Shown: piece by piece, positions 15,465 to 46,366 of the stretch
How the letters are laid out: the number at the start of each line of letters is the position of its first letter
Numbering within the stretch: position 1 is the first letter of the stretch
The notes under the pieces: model-generated
The model's database searches: none
Seen by the model: the letters and a program-made list of their open reading frames with translations, nothing else
Told to the model about the DNA's origin: nothing
From: a virus
Strand: one strand, 5' to 3'
Virus record (IMG/VR): IMGVR_UViG_3300030451_002952
Location: 12,430-58,795 of that record
Length of the DNA stretch: 46,366 nt
Position numbers and translations under genes: made by a program

Positions 15465-15983
15465 AAACATCCCCTACAATATATTTAAACCAAACTACAA
15501 GAGTATGTAACCCTTTATTTGCTAAATATAAGAATTATATCTGAATTATTTATAATAATTGGAAATAATTTATTTCTATTTTAAATATTTACTGGGTTAA
15601 TGCGTGATTGGGGTTATGTAGTATAGCAAGCGGGTACGGTATGCAAAAGACAAACGACAAACGTAAAACGGGGGGGCTTTATGTTCTGTAATATGTTTTT
15701 GAAAGTCTAAATAATAGTTTTTAATATGCTTTTTTATATTCTATTTTAATTTATTGCGGTCTGTTTGTATTTTAAACCATAATATTAAAGTCCTGTAAAT
15801 ACTTTTTACTATATAAAAGAAAGATTTTATTTTGTCGGTCAAGTTTTAAAACAAAAACAAAAACTTTTTTTTAATTTTCTGTCTGTTTATGAAGAAAAAT
15901 CAAGCGAAACCATAATTTCTTAAAAAATTTTTTTTCTCTCAAAAACTGCATTTAAATATATTTTAGCTGAGATTTTGCGGAAA

Positions 15984-16082: not shown

Positions 16083-16556
16083 ATGAATTATAAAACGACA
16101 ATAAACTACGGCGGAACGAAAAAAGGTCACAGCCAAATTAAATTAGAATTAAAAGAAACCGATAAAGGGTTTGTTTTTAGTGCAAGCGGGTTATACGATT
16201 ATCAGTATAATAGACATATGAGAATGTGGGATTATTGGCAGGGTGGACAATGTTTGGATAGTATTGCAAAAGAATATCCGACTGATAGAGAATTAGCGGA
16301 AATTGTGAGATTATGGAAGCTATATCATTTAAATGATATGAACGCGGGGACACCGTTACAAAGTTCATATTTAAAAACATTAGGAAAATATCAAGGTTTT
16401 GAGTGGGCATGTGAGGAATTGGAAAAGGTTGGTTTATATAATGATAACGGATATAAATACGGGTCGAAATGGTTATTCAATAAAATTCCTCAAACAGAAT
16501 TAAACAAAATTATTCATATTATAGAGCGAAATAATAGCAAAGCTGACGAGGTTTGA
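16083..16556 (+). CDS. Unknown 157-aa early protein
   Basis: First gene of the rightward operon, so likely expressed early. It is mixed alpha/beta and rich in aromatic residues. Distinctive segments are GGQCLDSIAKEYPTDRELAEI near residues 57-77, WKLYHLNDMNAGTPLQ near 82-97 and YKYGSKWLFNKIP near 128-140. I have the impression of a recurrent phage/plasmid family with these motifs but cannot name a function. There is no signal peptide or membrane segment. The start follows an A-rich leader (CAAAAACAATG) shared with other early genes. Confidence 0.75.
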   Translation: MNYKTTINYGGTKKGHSQIKLELKETDKGFVFSASGLYDYQYNRHMRMWDYWQGGQCLDSIAKEYPTDRELAEIVRLWKLYHLNDMNAGTPLQSSYLKTLGKYQGFEWACEELEKVGLYNDNGYKYGSKWLFNKIPQTELNKIIHIIERNNSKADEV

Positions 16557-16565
16557 ATAACCGAA

Positions 16566-16589
16566 ACTAACCAATTTATATTGGTTAGT
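16566..16589 (+). terminator. Intergenic hairpin after the first early gene
   Basis: ACTAACCAAT (16566-16575) pairs perfectly with ATTGGTTAGT (16580-16589) around loop TTAT. No U-run follows. A second small palindrome (TTGCAATATTGCAA) and the AAACAC..ACAATG leader come next. It may be a processing or attenuation site rather than a full terminator. Confidence 0.5.
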
Positions 16590-16623
16590 CCTTTGCAATA
16601 TTGCAAGATTAAACACAAAAACA

Positions 16624-17292
16624 ATGAACGGAAATTTTAAAACGTTTTTTTCAGCAGGCGGAGTAGATTGCGAAGCCGTTGAAAATGGAGCAAATGTTAT
16701 TGCCTCAGCAAACCGAAATAAGTTTGAAAGCTCGATTGCTATAGCAAAAGAGATAAAAAAGGGCGTTGACTTTGTTATGTCCGATGAGGGGCAAACCGCC
16801 TACAGAGATTTAGGCTTAGCCGTACCGATGAATATAACAGGAACGGAAACACAGAAACGAACAAAAGCAAAAAGATTTGTTCGTGAGCATTTTGATTTAA
16901 GATTTAAAACGTCTTATTTCAATAGGTTACATAAACTTGGCAAAAGGATAACGGAAGACCCGCAAATCTTGAGTAATTACAGGCGAGCAAGAACAAGACA
17001 AAGAAGACAGGGTTTTGATGTTAGCTTATCGGTTGACGATTTCAATAAATTTGTAAATAGTAACAATGAGGAAACGACAAGACCCGATAAAATAGGGCGT
17101 TTAATGATGACTATTAACAACGAAAAGCACTATTTCACTATCGAAAGCGAAAGCGGAAATATTACAATTAAAAAAGGTAGGGAAATGGTTGACGGGTCTA
17201 ACGTTGAGATTTTAAACAATGCTATTGACTTGTTTAAGGCTCATGTGGATGCGGTTACGGAAACGGAAATTCTAGAAGCTATAAACAATTAA
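16624..17292 (+). CDS. Unknown 222-aa early protein
   Basis: No family recognised. The middle is basic and probably helical (ETQKRTKAKRFVREHFDLRF near residues 80-99, NYRRARTRQRRQGFD near 119-133), which could bind nucleic acid. The C-terminal third contains a beta hairpin (KHYFTIESESGNITIKKGRE) and an acidic helix. It is followed after two bases by the amidoligase-like gene, so the two are probably co-expressed and may act together. Codons ending in G or C and CG dinucleotides appear more frequent than in the structural genes. Confidence 0.7.
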   Translation: MNGNFKTFFSAGGVDCEAVENGANVIASANRNKFESSIAIAKEIKKGVDFVMSDEGQTAYRDLGLAVPMNITGTETQKRTKAKRFVREHFDLRFKTSYFNRLHKLGKRITEDPQILSNYRRARTRQRRQGFDVSLSVDDFNKFVNSNNEETTRPDKIGRLMMTINNEKHYFTIESESGNITIKKGREMVDGSNVEILNNAIDLFKAHVDAVTETEILEAINN

Positions 17293-17294
17293 TT

Positions 17295-18173
17295 ATGTAC
17301 GTATACAGAAAAGGAAGAAGAATGGACACAATAACGGGAGAAAGTCGCAAAGACGTTATTAATCGTTATAATTCATCTTTAAGGTTTAGATACTTTCATG
17401 AAAATCTTACAAAAGACGACATGAAATACGCAACAAAAACAGAACGCAGTAATTTATTCATGCCTATAGATAATATAAATTTTAAGTCAAAATTTACTAT
17501 AGGTTTTGAGATAGAAAAGACAGCGTTTTTCAGAGGGGCGGTCAAAGAGTACCCACTATTTAAAGCACTAGAAAGAGATGGAAGTTGTGGAGTTGAGGCG
17601 GTCACTAATGTATTACCTCTAGTTTCTAAATGTATTGCAAGGGACAAAGTTTTCGGAATGTTTCATGAGGCAAATGAAATTATTGATGATAGATTTAGTC
17701 CTAGCGATTACAGATGCGGGGGACATATTACGGTATCAGTTGCTAACATGGAGTCTTTCGAGATAGTCCAAAAATTAAAAGCAAGTATCGGAATATTATA
17801 TGCTCTTTACAGGCACAGGCTAACGAATACATATTGCAACAACAATAAATTTATTAGGCGTTCCGATAACATGAAATACAGTCCCGTATATGTGAAACCA
17901 AATGGACGTATTGAGTTCAGACTTTTCAGCAGAATTCAGAACGTTCAGCAAATGATTTTACGATACAAGTTACTATATGTTATTTTAGACAGTTGCATAA
18001 ATAAGAACAACAGATTTGCAACAGTATTGCGAAAAGTAAAACCGATTATTACAGAAATGTATAACGGGGATGCGGACAAAGTAAACGAGATAATTGATTT
18101 ATCTAAACATTTTGCGAAAGCCTTAAGTATGGATGGACAGCGTGTGCATTCCTCTATACAAAGGTTTATATAA
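17295..18173 (+). CDS. Amidoligase-family protein (COOH-NH2 ligase)
   Basis: A 292-aa protein with the motif order of the phage/bacterial amidoligase (glutamine synthetase-like) family. GFEIE is at residues 70-74 (metal/ATP-binding acids), ERDGSCGVEAVT at 93-104, CGGHITVS at 141-148 (in place of the usual GxHxH) and RIEFRLF at 205-211. Such enzymes join a carboxylate to an amine using ATP, making amide or peptide bonds on proteins, cell-wall or small molecules. A gene 1.2 kb downstream fuses a glutamine amidotransferase to a gamma-glutamylcyclotransferase, partners known from amidoligase neighbourhoods, which supports the call. The substrate cannot be told. The second histidine of the family motif is replaced by threonine. 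Confidence 0.65.
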   Translation: MYVYRKGRRMDTITGESRKDVINRYNSSLRFRYFHENLTKDDMKYATKTERSNLFMPIDNINFKSKFTIGFEIEKTAFFRGAVKEYPLFKALERDGSCGVEAVTNVLPLVSKCIARDKVFGMFHEANEIIDDRFSPSDYRCGGHITVSVANMESFEIVQKLKASIGILYALYRHRLTNTYCNNNKFIRRSDNMKYSPVYVKPNGRIEFRLFSRIQNVQQMILRYKLLYVILDSCINKNNRFATVLRKVKPIITEMYNGDADKVNEIIDLSKHFAKALSMDGQRVHSSIQRFI

Positions 18174-18177
18174 CACT

Positions 18178-18205
18178 ATAGGGGATTTTTTAACCAATCC
18201 CCTAT
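18178..18205 (+). terminator. Terminator-like hairpin after the amidoligase gene
   Basis: ATAGGGGATT (18178-18187) pairs perfectly with AATCCCCTAT (18196-18205). It begins four bases after the amidoligase stop and is followed by only a short T-run before TTTAAACACA. A closely similar hairpin ends the GATase/GGCT gene at 20359-20380. Confidence 0.6.
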
Positions 18206-18221
18206 TTAAACACAATAGACA

Positions 18222-18305
18222 ATGAAAAAAGCAATAATTGATTTTACATTTTTATTATTAGTTGGGTTTGTTTTTTGGGCGATGCACTTGCTCTTCCTAG
18301 CCTAA
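18222..18305 (+). CDS. 27-aa single-membrane-span microprotein
   Basis: ATG at 18222 to TAA at 18303-18305, preceded by the TTTAAACACA leader seen before other early genes. The product starts MKKAIIDFTFLLLVGFVFWA and is almost wholly hydrophobic after a short basic start. That fits a single transmembrane helix or an uncleaved signal anchor. Function unknown. The leader and position between two structured elements support translation, but the size leaves doubt. Confidence 0.45.
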   Translation: MKKAIIDFTFLLLVGFVFWAMHLLFLA

Positions 18306-18311
18306 CTTAAA

Positions 18312-18357
18312 AAGATACGATGGTCTTTATGGGGGTTCGATTCCCCCAGTATCTTCA
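18312..18357 (+). ncRNA. tRNA-like minihelix (T-arm plus acceptor stem), possible attP core or tRNA relic
   Basis: AAGATAC (18312-18318) pairs with GTATCTT (18349-18355) and encloses a perfect T-arm, GGGGG TTCGATT CCCCC (18331-18347). The arm carries the invariant GGTTCGAxTCC signature. Only 12 bases lie between the acceptor 5' strand and the T-arm, so the D and anticodon arms are absent. It may be a tRNA pseudogene, a copy of a host tRNA 3' end serving as attachment site, or a tRNA-mimic RNA. It is 3.4 kb from the integrase gene, far for a typical attP. Confidence 0.55.
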
Positions 18358-18390
18358 ATGCAATTTTGCAGATTTTTTAAACACTAAACA

Positions 18391-18732
18391 ATGATTAATA
18401 TTAATTTAATTGATAGACTACCAAAGAGAAAAAATTCTAGGGTTAGTTATTCAACAATTTATTATAATGATAACAATTTGTTCGGCTTAAATACTAGCGT
18501 TGGAATTGGTTTCATTAAATATTTGAAAACAAAAAAGACCATACAAAAAATTGGTAATGGTCAAGCTAAATGGTATCATGCGGGTAGTAATACCTTAACG
18601 AAAGCCATAACACAAATACGGAAATGGTACAGACTTAAAGTAAAGTCTAAATCATGGAAGAAAGCGAGAGTTAAAACTTATAACACCTCAAACATTGAGG
18701 AAATTATTTTAAATTTAAAAGCGGTATTATGA
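18391..18732 (+). CDS. Unknown basic 113-aa protein
   Basis: A basic protein (many Lys/Arg) with a beta-rich first half and a helical second half (ITQIRKWYRLKVKSKSWKKA near residues 74-93, then NIEEIILNLKAVL). It starts after the TTTAAACACTAAACAATG leader and overlaps the next gene by four bases. It could bind nucleic acid, judging only from charge. No family recognised. Confidence 0.65.
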   Translation: MININLIDRLPKRKNSRVSYSTIYYNDNNLFGLNTSVGIGFIKYLKTKKTIQKIGNGQAKWYHAGSNTLTKAITQIRKWYRLKVKSKSWKKARVKTYNTSNIEEIILNLKAVL

Positions 18733-19345: not shown

Positions 19346-20386
19346 ATGTGCGTTATTATTATCAAAAACAACAACAACAAGATTCCTAACAAGACTTTAC
19401 AAAAATCATCAGTAGTTAATCCTCATGGTTTGGGTATCGTTTGGTTAGACACTTACAAGATAGAATATACAGATAGTAAAAATTATTCTAGGCTTGATAC
19501 CAACAGACCTTTCATTGCACACTTTAGATATGCAACAGTAGGTAAGGTTGGTTTATCTAACACCCATCCTTTTAGATGTGGTAAGTCTCACGAGTATCTT
19601 ATGATGAATGGTACTATTCGTACTCTAGGTAATGACAGAGAGTGCGATACAAAAGTCTTAGCTAACAAGATATCTAAGAAAGACCGTAACGAGTGGAAGA
19701 ATGTATTATCTCAATACTCTTGCCGATTCGTCAGCGTTAATACAAAGCGTAAACAATATCAGATATACAACAAAGATTTATTTACTAAGGTTGATGGTGT
19801 ATGGTATTCTAAAACAAACGTATTACCAAGCGTTTACGTTGGTGTATACGGTACTCTCAAGCGTGGACATGGTAATCACAGGTTACTTATGTCTAGCACG
19901 TTTATTGGTAAGGGTAAAACAAATGACAGGTATCCATTAACAATAAGTAGCTTGCCTTATCTACACAAACAAGAAAACGTTGGTCACAATGTGGAAGTAG
20001 AAGTTTACAAAGTTGACCATCCTACATTAGAACAGCTAGACAGGTTAGAGGGGCATCCTCATTTTTACAAGCGTGAGGTTATAGAAATTAGAATGAATAG
20101 CGGTAGACTATTGAGTGCGTGGGTTTACTTTGTGCAAAACAGAAGTCACAATAACGAAAGACTACACAAGCGATACGGCGGACATGAAGACACTTATAAT
20201 ATATCTACAGTATCAGACCATCGTAAATGGTGTGAATACTTACAAGACGATGTCTATTGTCCTAATTGTGATGGTGTTCTTACCTACAATAACAATGGAG
20301 TTTATCATTGTGACGGTTGTATGGATACTATTGCAGACACTTACTATGAAGAAGATATTAGGGGCTTTAACAATCCCCTATTTTAA
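19346..20386 (+). CDS. Fused class-II glutamine amidotransferase and gamma-glutamylcyclotransferase with zinc ribbon
   Basis: A 346-aa protein with three parts. Residues 1-160 are an Ntn-type class-II glutamine amidotransferase: Cys2 directly after Met (nucleophile), RYATVG at 61-66, NTHPF at 72-76, MNGTI at 87-91. This type frees ammonia from glutamine. Residues 163-262 are a GGCT/AIG2-like domain: VYGTLKRGHGNHRLL at 167-181 and LDRLEGHPHFYKR at 231-243, with Glu235 the likely catalytic residue. GGCT enzymes cyclise gamma-glutamyl groups, releasing 5-oxoproline. The C-terminus has Cys pairs CPNC (305-308) and CDGC (322-325). The gene has its own promoter and operators. With the amidoligase at 17295 it suggests a make-and-remove system for amide or gamma-glutamyl links. 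The substrate is unknown. Confidence 0.75.
   Translation: MCVIIIKNNNNKIPNKTLQKSSVVNPHGLGIVWLDTYKIEYTDSKNYSRLDTNRPFIAHFRYATVGKVGLSNTHPFRCGKSHEYLMMNGTIRTLGNDRECDTKVLANKISKKDRNEWKNVLSQYSCRFVSVNTKRKQYQIYNKDLFTKVDGVWYSKTNVLPSVYVGVYGTLKRGHGNHRLLMSSTFIGKGKTNDRYPLTISSLPYLHKQENVGHNVEVEVYKVDHPTLEQLDRLEGHPHFYKREVIEIRMNSGRLLSAWVYFVQNRSHNNERLHKRYGGHEDTYNISTVSDHRKWCEYLQDDVYCPNCDGVLTYNNNGVYHCDGCMDTIADTYYEEDIRGFNNPLF
20359..20380 (+). terminator. Terminator-like hairpin at the end of the GATase/GGCT gene
   Basis: TAGGGG (20359-20364) pairs with CCCCTA (20375-20380) and is followed by TTTTAATTTTAATTT. It overlaps the last codons of the gene. The loop and flanks resemble the hairpin at 18178-18205. Confidence 0.5.
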
Positions 20387-21732: not shown

Positions 21733-22875
21733 ATGAAAAACACACTTAGCAACCTTTCGTTAAAAAACAAATACACTTTAAGTGATGCTATACAAAACTT
21801 TGTTACACAGAAATATCACGTAACAAAAGGAACACAAAGAGCAGACATTACAATAAAGTCTTATAAAACAATATCTAACATACTTTTAAAAACAATTCAA
21901 AAACATAAAGTAGATTATGATTTGCTAGAACTAAATCTAAATAAATATTTAGACGACCCAATAAAATCAAATCAAATCAAAAATAAATACAGAAATATAT
22001 CTGAGGTAATAAAAAGCGAATCACAACACTTATCACACAACACTTTACAAAAAAGATTGAACATCTTAAAATACAGTTTATACTCAGCTGAAAAAGATAT
22101 GACAATAAAAACTTATGTAGCACCATTTGATATGAAATCTAAATCAACAAAGCGTGAAGTAATGAGTGCGTCAGCTTTCAAGACTACAATCAAGAATGCG
22201 TTTTTAGTATTGCGTCAGCAGGAAGGTGAAAAAATAAGAAGGAAGCAATGTCCTGCTTCAGGAAAATTTATCAAATCACCTGAACAAATAAGTCAGGCAG
22301 GAGATGTAAAAATGATGAAGCGAGGAGCGTTTGCTTTTCTTTTAGTGGCATTTACTAGTGCTAGAATAAAAGATGTTATGTCTTGGAGGTTTAGTAAAAA
22401 TATTAGTATTAACAAACATCATTATATTCTTTCTTACAAACCCAACAAAACAAAACATACTGTTATTGATATACCCTTGCCACTACAACTAAACGGATAC
22501 ATAAATCATTTGATACGTAACAATGACCATCCGATGAAAGATTATTTTTTAGATAATCTATCTTATACACATTTGTTAAAGTGCTTTAGGTGTTTTATTA
22601 AATCAATCCGCGAACTAAATCAAAATGTTTCTGTACATAAAGACCTATCAAATGGGGAAGTGATAACTAAACAAAAAAAACTATATGAAATACTTACCTT
22701 TCATAATATACGTGCTACATTTATTACGCAAATGGTTGAGAAAGGCATAGACCTAGAAACTATTATGAACTTTAGTGGACACACTAACATACAAACACTT
22801 TCACAGAAGTATACAAACATAAGCGATGAACACAAAGGCAAAATGTATCAAAAATTTATGTCTGAAATCTTATAG
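21733..22875 (+). CDS. int: Tyrosine recombinase (integrase)
   Basis: A 380-aa tyrosine recombinase. The first ~130 residues form the SAM-like core-binding domain. The catalytic domain has R211 (TSARIKDVMSWRF), a lysine in the YKPNKTKHTVIDIPL hairpin (about 235-249), HNIR at 324-327, GH at 349-350 and the nucleophile Tyr360 (QTLSQKYTNIS). These match the R-K-HxxR-H-Y set needed to cut and rejoin DNA. It has its own promoter candidate between two terminator-like structures. It implies integration into a host chromosome, or resolution of genome multimers. No partner excisionase is adjacent, but a small HTH protein at 25162 could serve. Confidence 0.9.
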   Translation: MKNTLSNLSLKNKYTLSDAIQNFVTQKYHVTKGTQRADITIKSYKTISNILLKTIQKHKVDYDLLELNLNKYLDDPIKSNQIKNKYRNISEVIKSESQHLSHNTLQKRLNILKYSLYSAEKDMTIKTYVAPFDMKSKSTKREVMSASAFKTTIKNAFLVLRQQEGEKIRRKQCPASGKFIKSPEQISQAGDVKMMKRGAFAFLLVAFTSARIKDVMSWRFSKNISINKHHYILSYKPNKTKHTVIDIPLPLQLNGYINHLIRNNDHPMKDYFLDNLSYTHLLKCFRCFIKSIRELNQNVSVHKDLSNGEVITKQKKLYEILTFHNIRATFITQMVEKGIDLETIMNFSGHTNIQTLSQKYTNISDEHKGKMYQKFMSEIL

Positions 22876-45972: not shown

Positions 45973-46366
45973 TTAATTGTTTTTACCTCTTGAACTACCA
46001 CCTCCTGACGTTACAGGATTGCTTGCTATTGGTGCATCTCCTCCTCCTGTTGTTTGACTACCAACTACTATAGGTGGATTATTATTTACATTAGGGTTGG
46101 GAGTTACATAACCAAAAGTACCATTTACATTACCATGATATCTCCATCTGCTATCATGATATCTATAATCATAGTGTCTATCGTAATGAGGTACATAATA
46201 CCTACTATCTTGCCATCTTACAAAGTCATATCCAACTACATGATACATTCTTTGTGGTTGTATGTCTTGAATTTTTATTTTTACTGTATCACCTGAGTTT
46301 GTAAGTGCTAGAACATGAGTTACTATTACTCTGTTTGAATCATATAATACACTAGCACAACTTGAA
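45973..46366 (-). CDS. Probable lipoprotein, 5' end outside window
   Basis: The frame is open from the right edge and ends at 45973 (130 codons visible). The first visible residues, SSCASVLYDSNRVIVTHVLA, look like a bacterial lipobox (S-S-C) and mature lipoprotein start, so the missing part may be an 18-20 residue signal peptide. A beta-rich segment is followed by a His/Tyr/Arg-rich stretch (YYVPHYDRHYDYRYHDSRW) and a Pro/Asn then Gly/Ser-rich end. An ATG at 46248 would lose the beta-rich segment. Phage lipoproteins often block superinfection, but that role here is inference. Confidence 0.55.
   Translation of the reverse strand, partial: SSCASVLYDSNRVIVTHVLALTNSGDTVKIKIQDIQPQRMYHVVGYDFVRWQDSRYYVPHYDRHYDYRYHDSRWRYHGNVNGTFGYVTPNPNVNNNPPIVVGSQTTGGGDAPIASNPVTSGGGSSRGKNN

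Follow-up and report, generated by a model that had tools for sequence, protein, structure and literature searches.

The window analysed here, 46,366 nucleotides of a 58.8-kb phage record, carries at one gene border a 46-nt stretch (18312-18357) that looks like a tRNA cut down to its acceptor stem and T-arm. Is this a folded RNA in its own right or a trace of some tRNA, and what would a phage do with it? The terminase of this phage shares about 33% identity with its counterparts in Flavobacterium elemo phages and in an uncultured podovirus, and Cellulophaga phages were also matched. The two ends of the record (window 46267-46366 and L020 1-100) overlap by 100 bases at 95% identity, as in a near-circular assembly of a mixed population.

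The minihelix of the window

We found that a 7-bp stem encloses the connector and the T-arm. The T-stem, which comprises 6 bp if the T-A pair at 48:66 is counted, forms a continuous stack with the 7-bp stem. The element starts 6 nt past the stop of ORF 18222-18305 and ends 35 nt before the ATG at 18391, between co-directional genes. These features and their neighbours are listed in Table 1.

Table 1. Coordinates of the minihelix and of neighbouring features in the window
Feature	Position	Strand	Details and basis
Putative type I hammerhead ribozyme, between genes 16083-16556 and 16624-17292	16537-16596	+	core CUGACGA..GAAA..UC
Upstream gene, amidoligase-like	17295-18173	+	34-41% identity to genes in L023 and L025-L029
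10-bp hairpin right behind the stop of the amidoligase-like gene	18178-18205	+	fold -13 kcal/mol; resembles the stop-codon hairpins of relatives, GTGTCTTYRAAGACAC
27-aa hydrophobic ORF just upstream of the minihelix	18222-18305	+	ORF reading
Acceptor-like stem, 5' strand AAGATAC	18312-18318	+	read directly; fold; R1 model match 18313-18358
Connector GATGGTCTTTA, 11 nt, GG at 18322-18323 equivalent to D-loop G18G19	18319-18329	+	GG offset count
T-arm, 6-bp stem and canonical T-loop	18330-18348	+	read directly; partial tmRNA/T-arm match; R1
T-stem, 5' strand TGGGGG	18330-18335	+	read directly
T-loop TTCGATT	18336-18342	+	read directly
T-stem, 3' strand CCCCCA	18343-18348	+	read directly
Acceptor-like stem, 3' strand GTATCTT, then C-A-A	18349-18355	+	read directly; fold
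Leader of the downstream gene, short, with weak hairpin TGCAATTTTGCA followed by TAAACACTAAACA ahead of the ATG	18356-18390	+
Downstream gene, 113 aa	18391-18732	+
Integrase gene	21733-22875		3.4 kb from the minihelix

In isolation the minihelix folds with -15.0 to -15.6 kcal/mol, at a z-score of only about -2, and an alternative fold competes with it in a 121-nt context. Folding energy alone is therefore weak evidence, and since it is only moderately unusual the case has to be decided by comparison. Our scanner found no perfect T-arm with a 7/7 acceptor in 60 shuffled windows. ARAGORN called no tRNA at this position, where the D and anticodon arms of the tRNA model (RF00005) are absent. No Rfam model matched at its threshold, and loose thresholds gave T-arm fragments or chance matches for the minihelices.

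For gene 17295-18173, phage C75C1 has a gene in the matching position near GGCT that is annotated as an amidoligase; a Pfam search of the window gene gave no match. The partner of this gene, at 19346-20386, is a fused gene for class II amidotransferase and GGCT, and the pair is kept in L023 and L025-L029 and, by annotation, in C75C1. The hairpin at 18178-18205 is a candidate 3'-end protector. The TAAACAC leader that follows the minihelix recurs behind this hairpin and behind the hammerhead.

Phages reached through the GGCT/amidotransferase gene carry similar minihelices at their gene borders, with the pairing present, as the original prediction had asked of relatives. A tie between the minihelix and the amidoligase/GGCT pair was seen in these first relatives and is not general, with mycobacteriophage copies lying among other genes. 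The orthologous locus was not recovered from close relatives: the neighbouring proteins gave no relatives, G002 is too divergent, and in the nearest relative, G001 (95% identical), the contig breaks across the region, with ends at 15612 and 19288. BLAST of whole loci against phages gave no match. The region between these two contig ends may be hypervariable or a genome end.

A covarying minihelix family between phage genes

We took the connector AATGGTT and the T-arm that the relatives share as a pattern and searched IMG/VR, which returned at least 120 matching stretches. Among the matches listed, 12 lie in ordinary tRNAs according to ARAGORN, and a strict re-count found a T-stem plus at least four contiguous acceptor pairs in 93 of 106 distinct matches. 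When 3' flanks were swapped between sequences, stems were found in 8%. A control pattern with the connector reversed gave 15 stretches, and none of the 10 scored had stems. The family uses two registers, either 6+6 bp or 6 bp followed by one A.N mismatch and 5-6 bp, and the length of the stack peaks at 12-13 layers.

The stems covary. Across 44 sequences, 97.0% of cells are paired compared with 55.1% after shuffling, with 219 double-change cells compared with 60 and a score of 1.02 compared with 0.18; these sequences were chosen for having acceptor pairs, which makes the unselected 93 of 106 the fairer figure. Ten of the 12 pairs change on both sides with pairing kept, and the other two are invariant. 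This bears out the argument of the original prediction that matched acceptor strands point to a folded RNA and not to a chance copy of a tRNA 3' end.

A covariance model (R1) was built from these family sequences with the window element left out, so that its training drew only on elements of other phages. In a search of 694 kb it recovered the window copy with E=8.4e-5 and 28.7 bits, a score well below those of the best family members. The window copy has a 7+6 bp stack and the T-loop TTCGATT where the family has about 12 layers and TTCRANN. Its GG lies within GATGG at offset 3, inside the family range of 2-4 nt behind the 5' acceptor strand. The minihelix in the window is real, an acceptor-like stem and T-arm without D or anticodon arm.

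Of 45 scanner hits, 44 have the GG at 2-4 nt behind the acceptor strand, and 43 of these lie outside the window. The scanner did not ask for the GG; the one hit that lacks it is an AT-rich chance hit. In tRNA the GG of the D-loop (G18, G19) docks on the T-loop, and the connector therefore looks like a D-arm reduced to this contact. Phage W01 holds a candidate intermediate with an acceptor, a D-arm-like CCCC-AAATGGTA-GGGG and a T-arm but no anticodon arm. The same phages also hold tRNA-like genes with missing or odd anticodon arms (L025 3113-3186; L029 13443 and 9879; L052 523 and 637), which are perhaps steps between tRNA and minihelix.

BLAST with consensus minihelices reached Mycobacterium phages Indlulamithi, Fowlmouth, Send513 and Conspiracy, Corynebacterium phage PSonyx, crAss-like phage cr131_1, a Pasteurella phage and others. 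Indlulamithi, Fowlmouth and Send513 each have 8-12 unannotated copies in the gaps between small genes, apart from two Fowlmouth copies that lie inside annotated CDS; the scanner found no copy in 1.49 Mb of shuffled sequence. Most of these mycobacteriophage copies start 5-18 nt past a stop codon, typically 8-9, and they end 35-58 nt before the next start, with about 40 nt typical. Their tails begin with a purine and C (R-C) in all 31 counted; the second C is not kept and the third base is mostly G. Among the matches listed from IMG/VR, 65% of copies are intergenic compared with 22% at random and the flanking genes are co-directional (44/52 and 49/52), while about a third of the copies overlap ORF calls, which are naive there. 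In PSonyx a minihelix (L180 20825-20864) stands directly before a gene for an RtcB-like RNA ligase. The Pasteurella phage (L181) has the same minihelix near both ends of its record, at 241-280 and 46216-46255, which is likely terminal redundancy.

We conclude that the family almost certainly exists across unrelated phages. It is absent from Rfam 15, a search of open-access text found no published description, and it is apparently undescribed. A model search of 61 Bacillota genomes gave no match while the same search recovered the phages, which suggests, short of proof, a restriction to phages. A BLAST search of E. coli genomes, which has low power, found no minihelix.

Hammerheads in the same slot

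The window holds a second candidate for processing at a gene border. The element at 16537-16596, which overlaps the end of gene 16083-16556, combines a CUGANGA / GAAA / UH core with three stems of 6, 4 and 10 bp and folds in this way (z -4.3). A strict scan found no such hammerhead in 2.78 Mb of shuffled window. Rfam hammerhead models did not match it at E<=10, and its stem lengths may lie outside those models; we therefore call it a putative hammerhead by its core and stems and not by Rfam membership. Cleavage is predicted after C16590.

Strict scans confirmed type I and type III hammerheads in the relatives G004-G007. A short, genome-specific hairpin is repeated many times in G004-G008, often directly after a stop codon, and is possibly a terminator or a 3'-end protector. 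At the loci L034-L048 it reads GTGTCTTYRAAGACAC or CTCTTTGAAGAG. Behind the stop-codon hairpin these genomes place a minihelix, a hammerhead, a fuller tRNA-like element or nothing. In close relatives, then, the same intergenic slot is occupied by a minihelix or a hammerhead, and no other observation argues as strongly for transcript cutting as this use of either element behind a common hairpin.

Proposed processing by RNase P and likenesses to known systems

RNase P cleaves model substrates that consist of acceptor stem, T-stem and T-loop, and its cut falls at the canonical site (PMC11143913). The enzyme uses the 12-bp distance from the T-loop to the 5' end as a ruler; its RNA forms pairs with the RCCA end, and its protein contacts the leader at positions -8 to -3 (PMC11143913; see also PMC4919913). 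The minihelices retain the T-loop and the ruler, and in mycobacteriophages also the first two bases of RCCA. Their leader is about the right length, and the parts needed for translation alone have been dropped. The window copy matches this architecture only approximately, with a 13-bp stack and a T-C tail (T-C-A-A if 12 layers are counted). Hammerheads that flank prophage genes have been proposed to cut phage transcripts into gene-length mRNAs (Perreault 2011, PMC3088659).

Beyond the original prediction, the minihelix belongs to a very large intergenic family that is interchangeable with hammerheads and is most simply read as a set of cutting sites for RNase P. We give a probability of roughly 0.7 to the reading that minihelices serve as natural, minimal substrates through which RNase P divides polycistronic phage mRNA into segments; cleavage in vivo and its benefit are the parts of this reading that we infer. 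A minimal tRNA mimic inside the mRNA, made of an acceptor/T-arm stack of about 12 layers, a T-loop and a single-stranded GG connector, would be recognised by host RNase P at the T-loop and elbow. The enzyme would measure the stack and cleave at the 5' end of the stack, close behind the upstream gene, dividing the polycistronic transcript in two: the upstream mRNA would keep a short tail and the downstream one would begin with a base-paired end. In the flavobacterial clade the hairpin that follows the stop codon would shield the 3' end created by the cut, and hammerheads would do the equivalent cutting at other gene borders, including one in the window.

Two other functions could be served by the same fold. 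Excised mini-tRNAs might act in trans as decoys that occupy RNase P, CCA-adding enzyme, EF-Tu or tRNA-cleaving defence nucleases, as a tRNA-like fold with an elbow GG and many copies per phage would allow. We consider this unlikely, given copies tied to gene borders at near-fixed spacing, slots shared with hammerheads and a CCA end that is not kept. The original prediction had likewise proposed a working tRNA mimic that recruits such proteins: the mimic itself holds up, and recruitment of CCA-adding enzyme or EF-Tu is disfavoured because the copies do not conserve an encoded CCA (in mycobacteriophages the most frequent end is R-C-G). Less probable again is an uncleaved element that acts in cis, either stabilising the 5' UTR of the downstream gene or insulating its translation. 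The regular distance of about 40 nt to the next start and the gaps that hold hairpins alone would suit it, but any hairpin would do for this task, and the conserved T-loop, the GG and the 12-layer ruler are left unexplained.

The two tRNA-derived origins first suggested for the locus fare worse. A decayed tRNA gene is very improbable: fuller tRNA-like copies in relatives (L025 3113-3186, L029 13443 and 9879) make shrinkage a plausible origin, but decay would break pairs, whereas 10 of 12 vary on both sides with pairing kept. We reject decay because the stems covary across unrelated phages. An attP core that derives from the 3' end of a host tRNA has the perfect T-arm and the presence of an integrase gene in its favour; we give it next to no weight. 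The integrase lies 3.4 kb away. The 24-nt 3' part has no match in IMG/VR or in 84,980 bacterial and archaeal species genomes, and in the same species no tRNA carries even the 18-nt core. This core matches one bacterial contig, in a stretch without a tRNA, and one phage contig, where it is intergenic and lacks a T-stem; both matches are taken as chance. An attP core would leave the 5' acceptor strand as a coincidence, and relatives keep the pairing with other sequences. No tRNA sharing the segment was found, and an origin as attP or host tRNA was dropped.

Returning to cleavage by RNase P, it is likely that a so far unrecognised mini-tRNA of about 40-45 nt, present in up to a dozen copies per genome, is common to tailed phages of many bacterial phyla and serves as a sequence-independent mRNA splitter that uses host RNase P and can be exchanged for hammerheads, a bacterial counterpart of mitochondrial tRNA punctuation. 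If so, phages would frequently carry natural versions of the minimal acceptor/T-arm substrate on which RNase P has long been studied, and the roughly 90-nt gaps that regularly separate small mycobacteriophage genes would have an explanation. It would also provide a rule for phage transcript processing that is directly testable in Mycobacterium smegmatis, and it would mean that phages swap a cutting site for a host enzyme for a self-cleaving ribozyme at the same type of border.

The RNA family appears new, while the principle of tRNA-like punctuation is already known from organelles. In mitochondria, the enzymes that process tRNAs cut transcripts at places marked by tRNA structures that stand between genes. 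Those structures are decoding tRNAs, whereas the minihelices cannot decode and their hosts are bacterial. The AT1-type synthetic substrates of RNase P (acceptor stem, T-stem and T-loop of tRNA-Phe; PMC11143913) have the same parts, the 12-bp distance and the downstream R-C contacts; they are designed, while the phage minihelices are natural, multi-copy and intergenic, add a GG connector and do not conserve CCA. RNase P also acts on other RNAs, among them polycistronic mRNAs and the C4 RNA of P1/P7 (cited in PMC11143913), which are single cases with ad hoc structures and not a repeated, dedicated family. The gene-border hammerheads of prophages (PMC3088659) share the place and the proposed transcript-segmenting job, and both kinds occur in the window and its relatives; the minihelix, which lacks a catalytic core, would depend on an enzyme of the host. 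Theta ribozymes near phage tRNAs (PMC10879173, whose text gave no hit for minihelices or hammerheads in a term search) are likewise phage RNA elements that process tRNA-related transcripts, but they are HDV-like catalytic RNAs that cut tRNA 3' trailers. Finally, mascRNA/menRNA (RF01684) is a tRNA-like element within a long RNA that is processed by tRNA enzymes and, like the minihelix, keeps T-arm and acceptor; it is eukaryotic and has other connector arms, and the minihelix scores 14.6 bits against its cut-off of 42.5.
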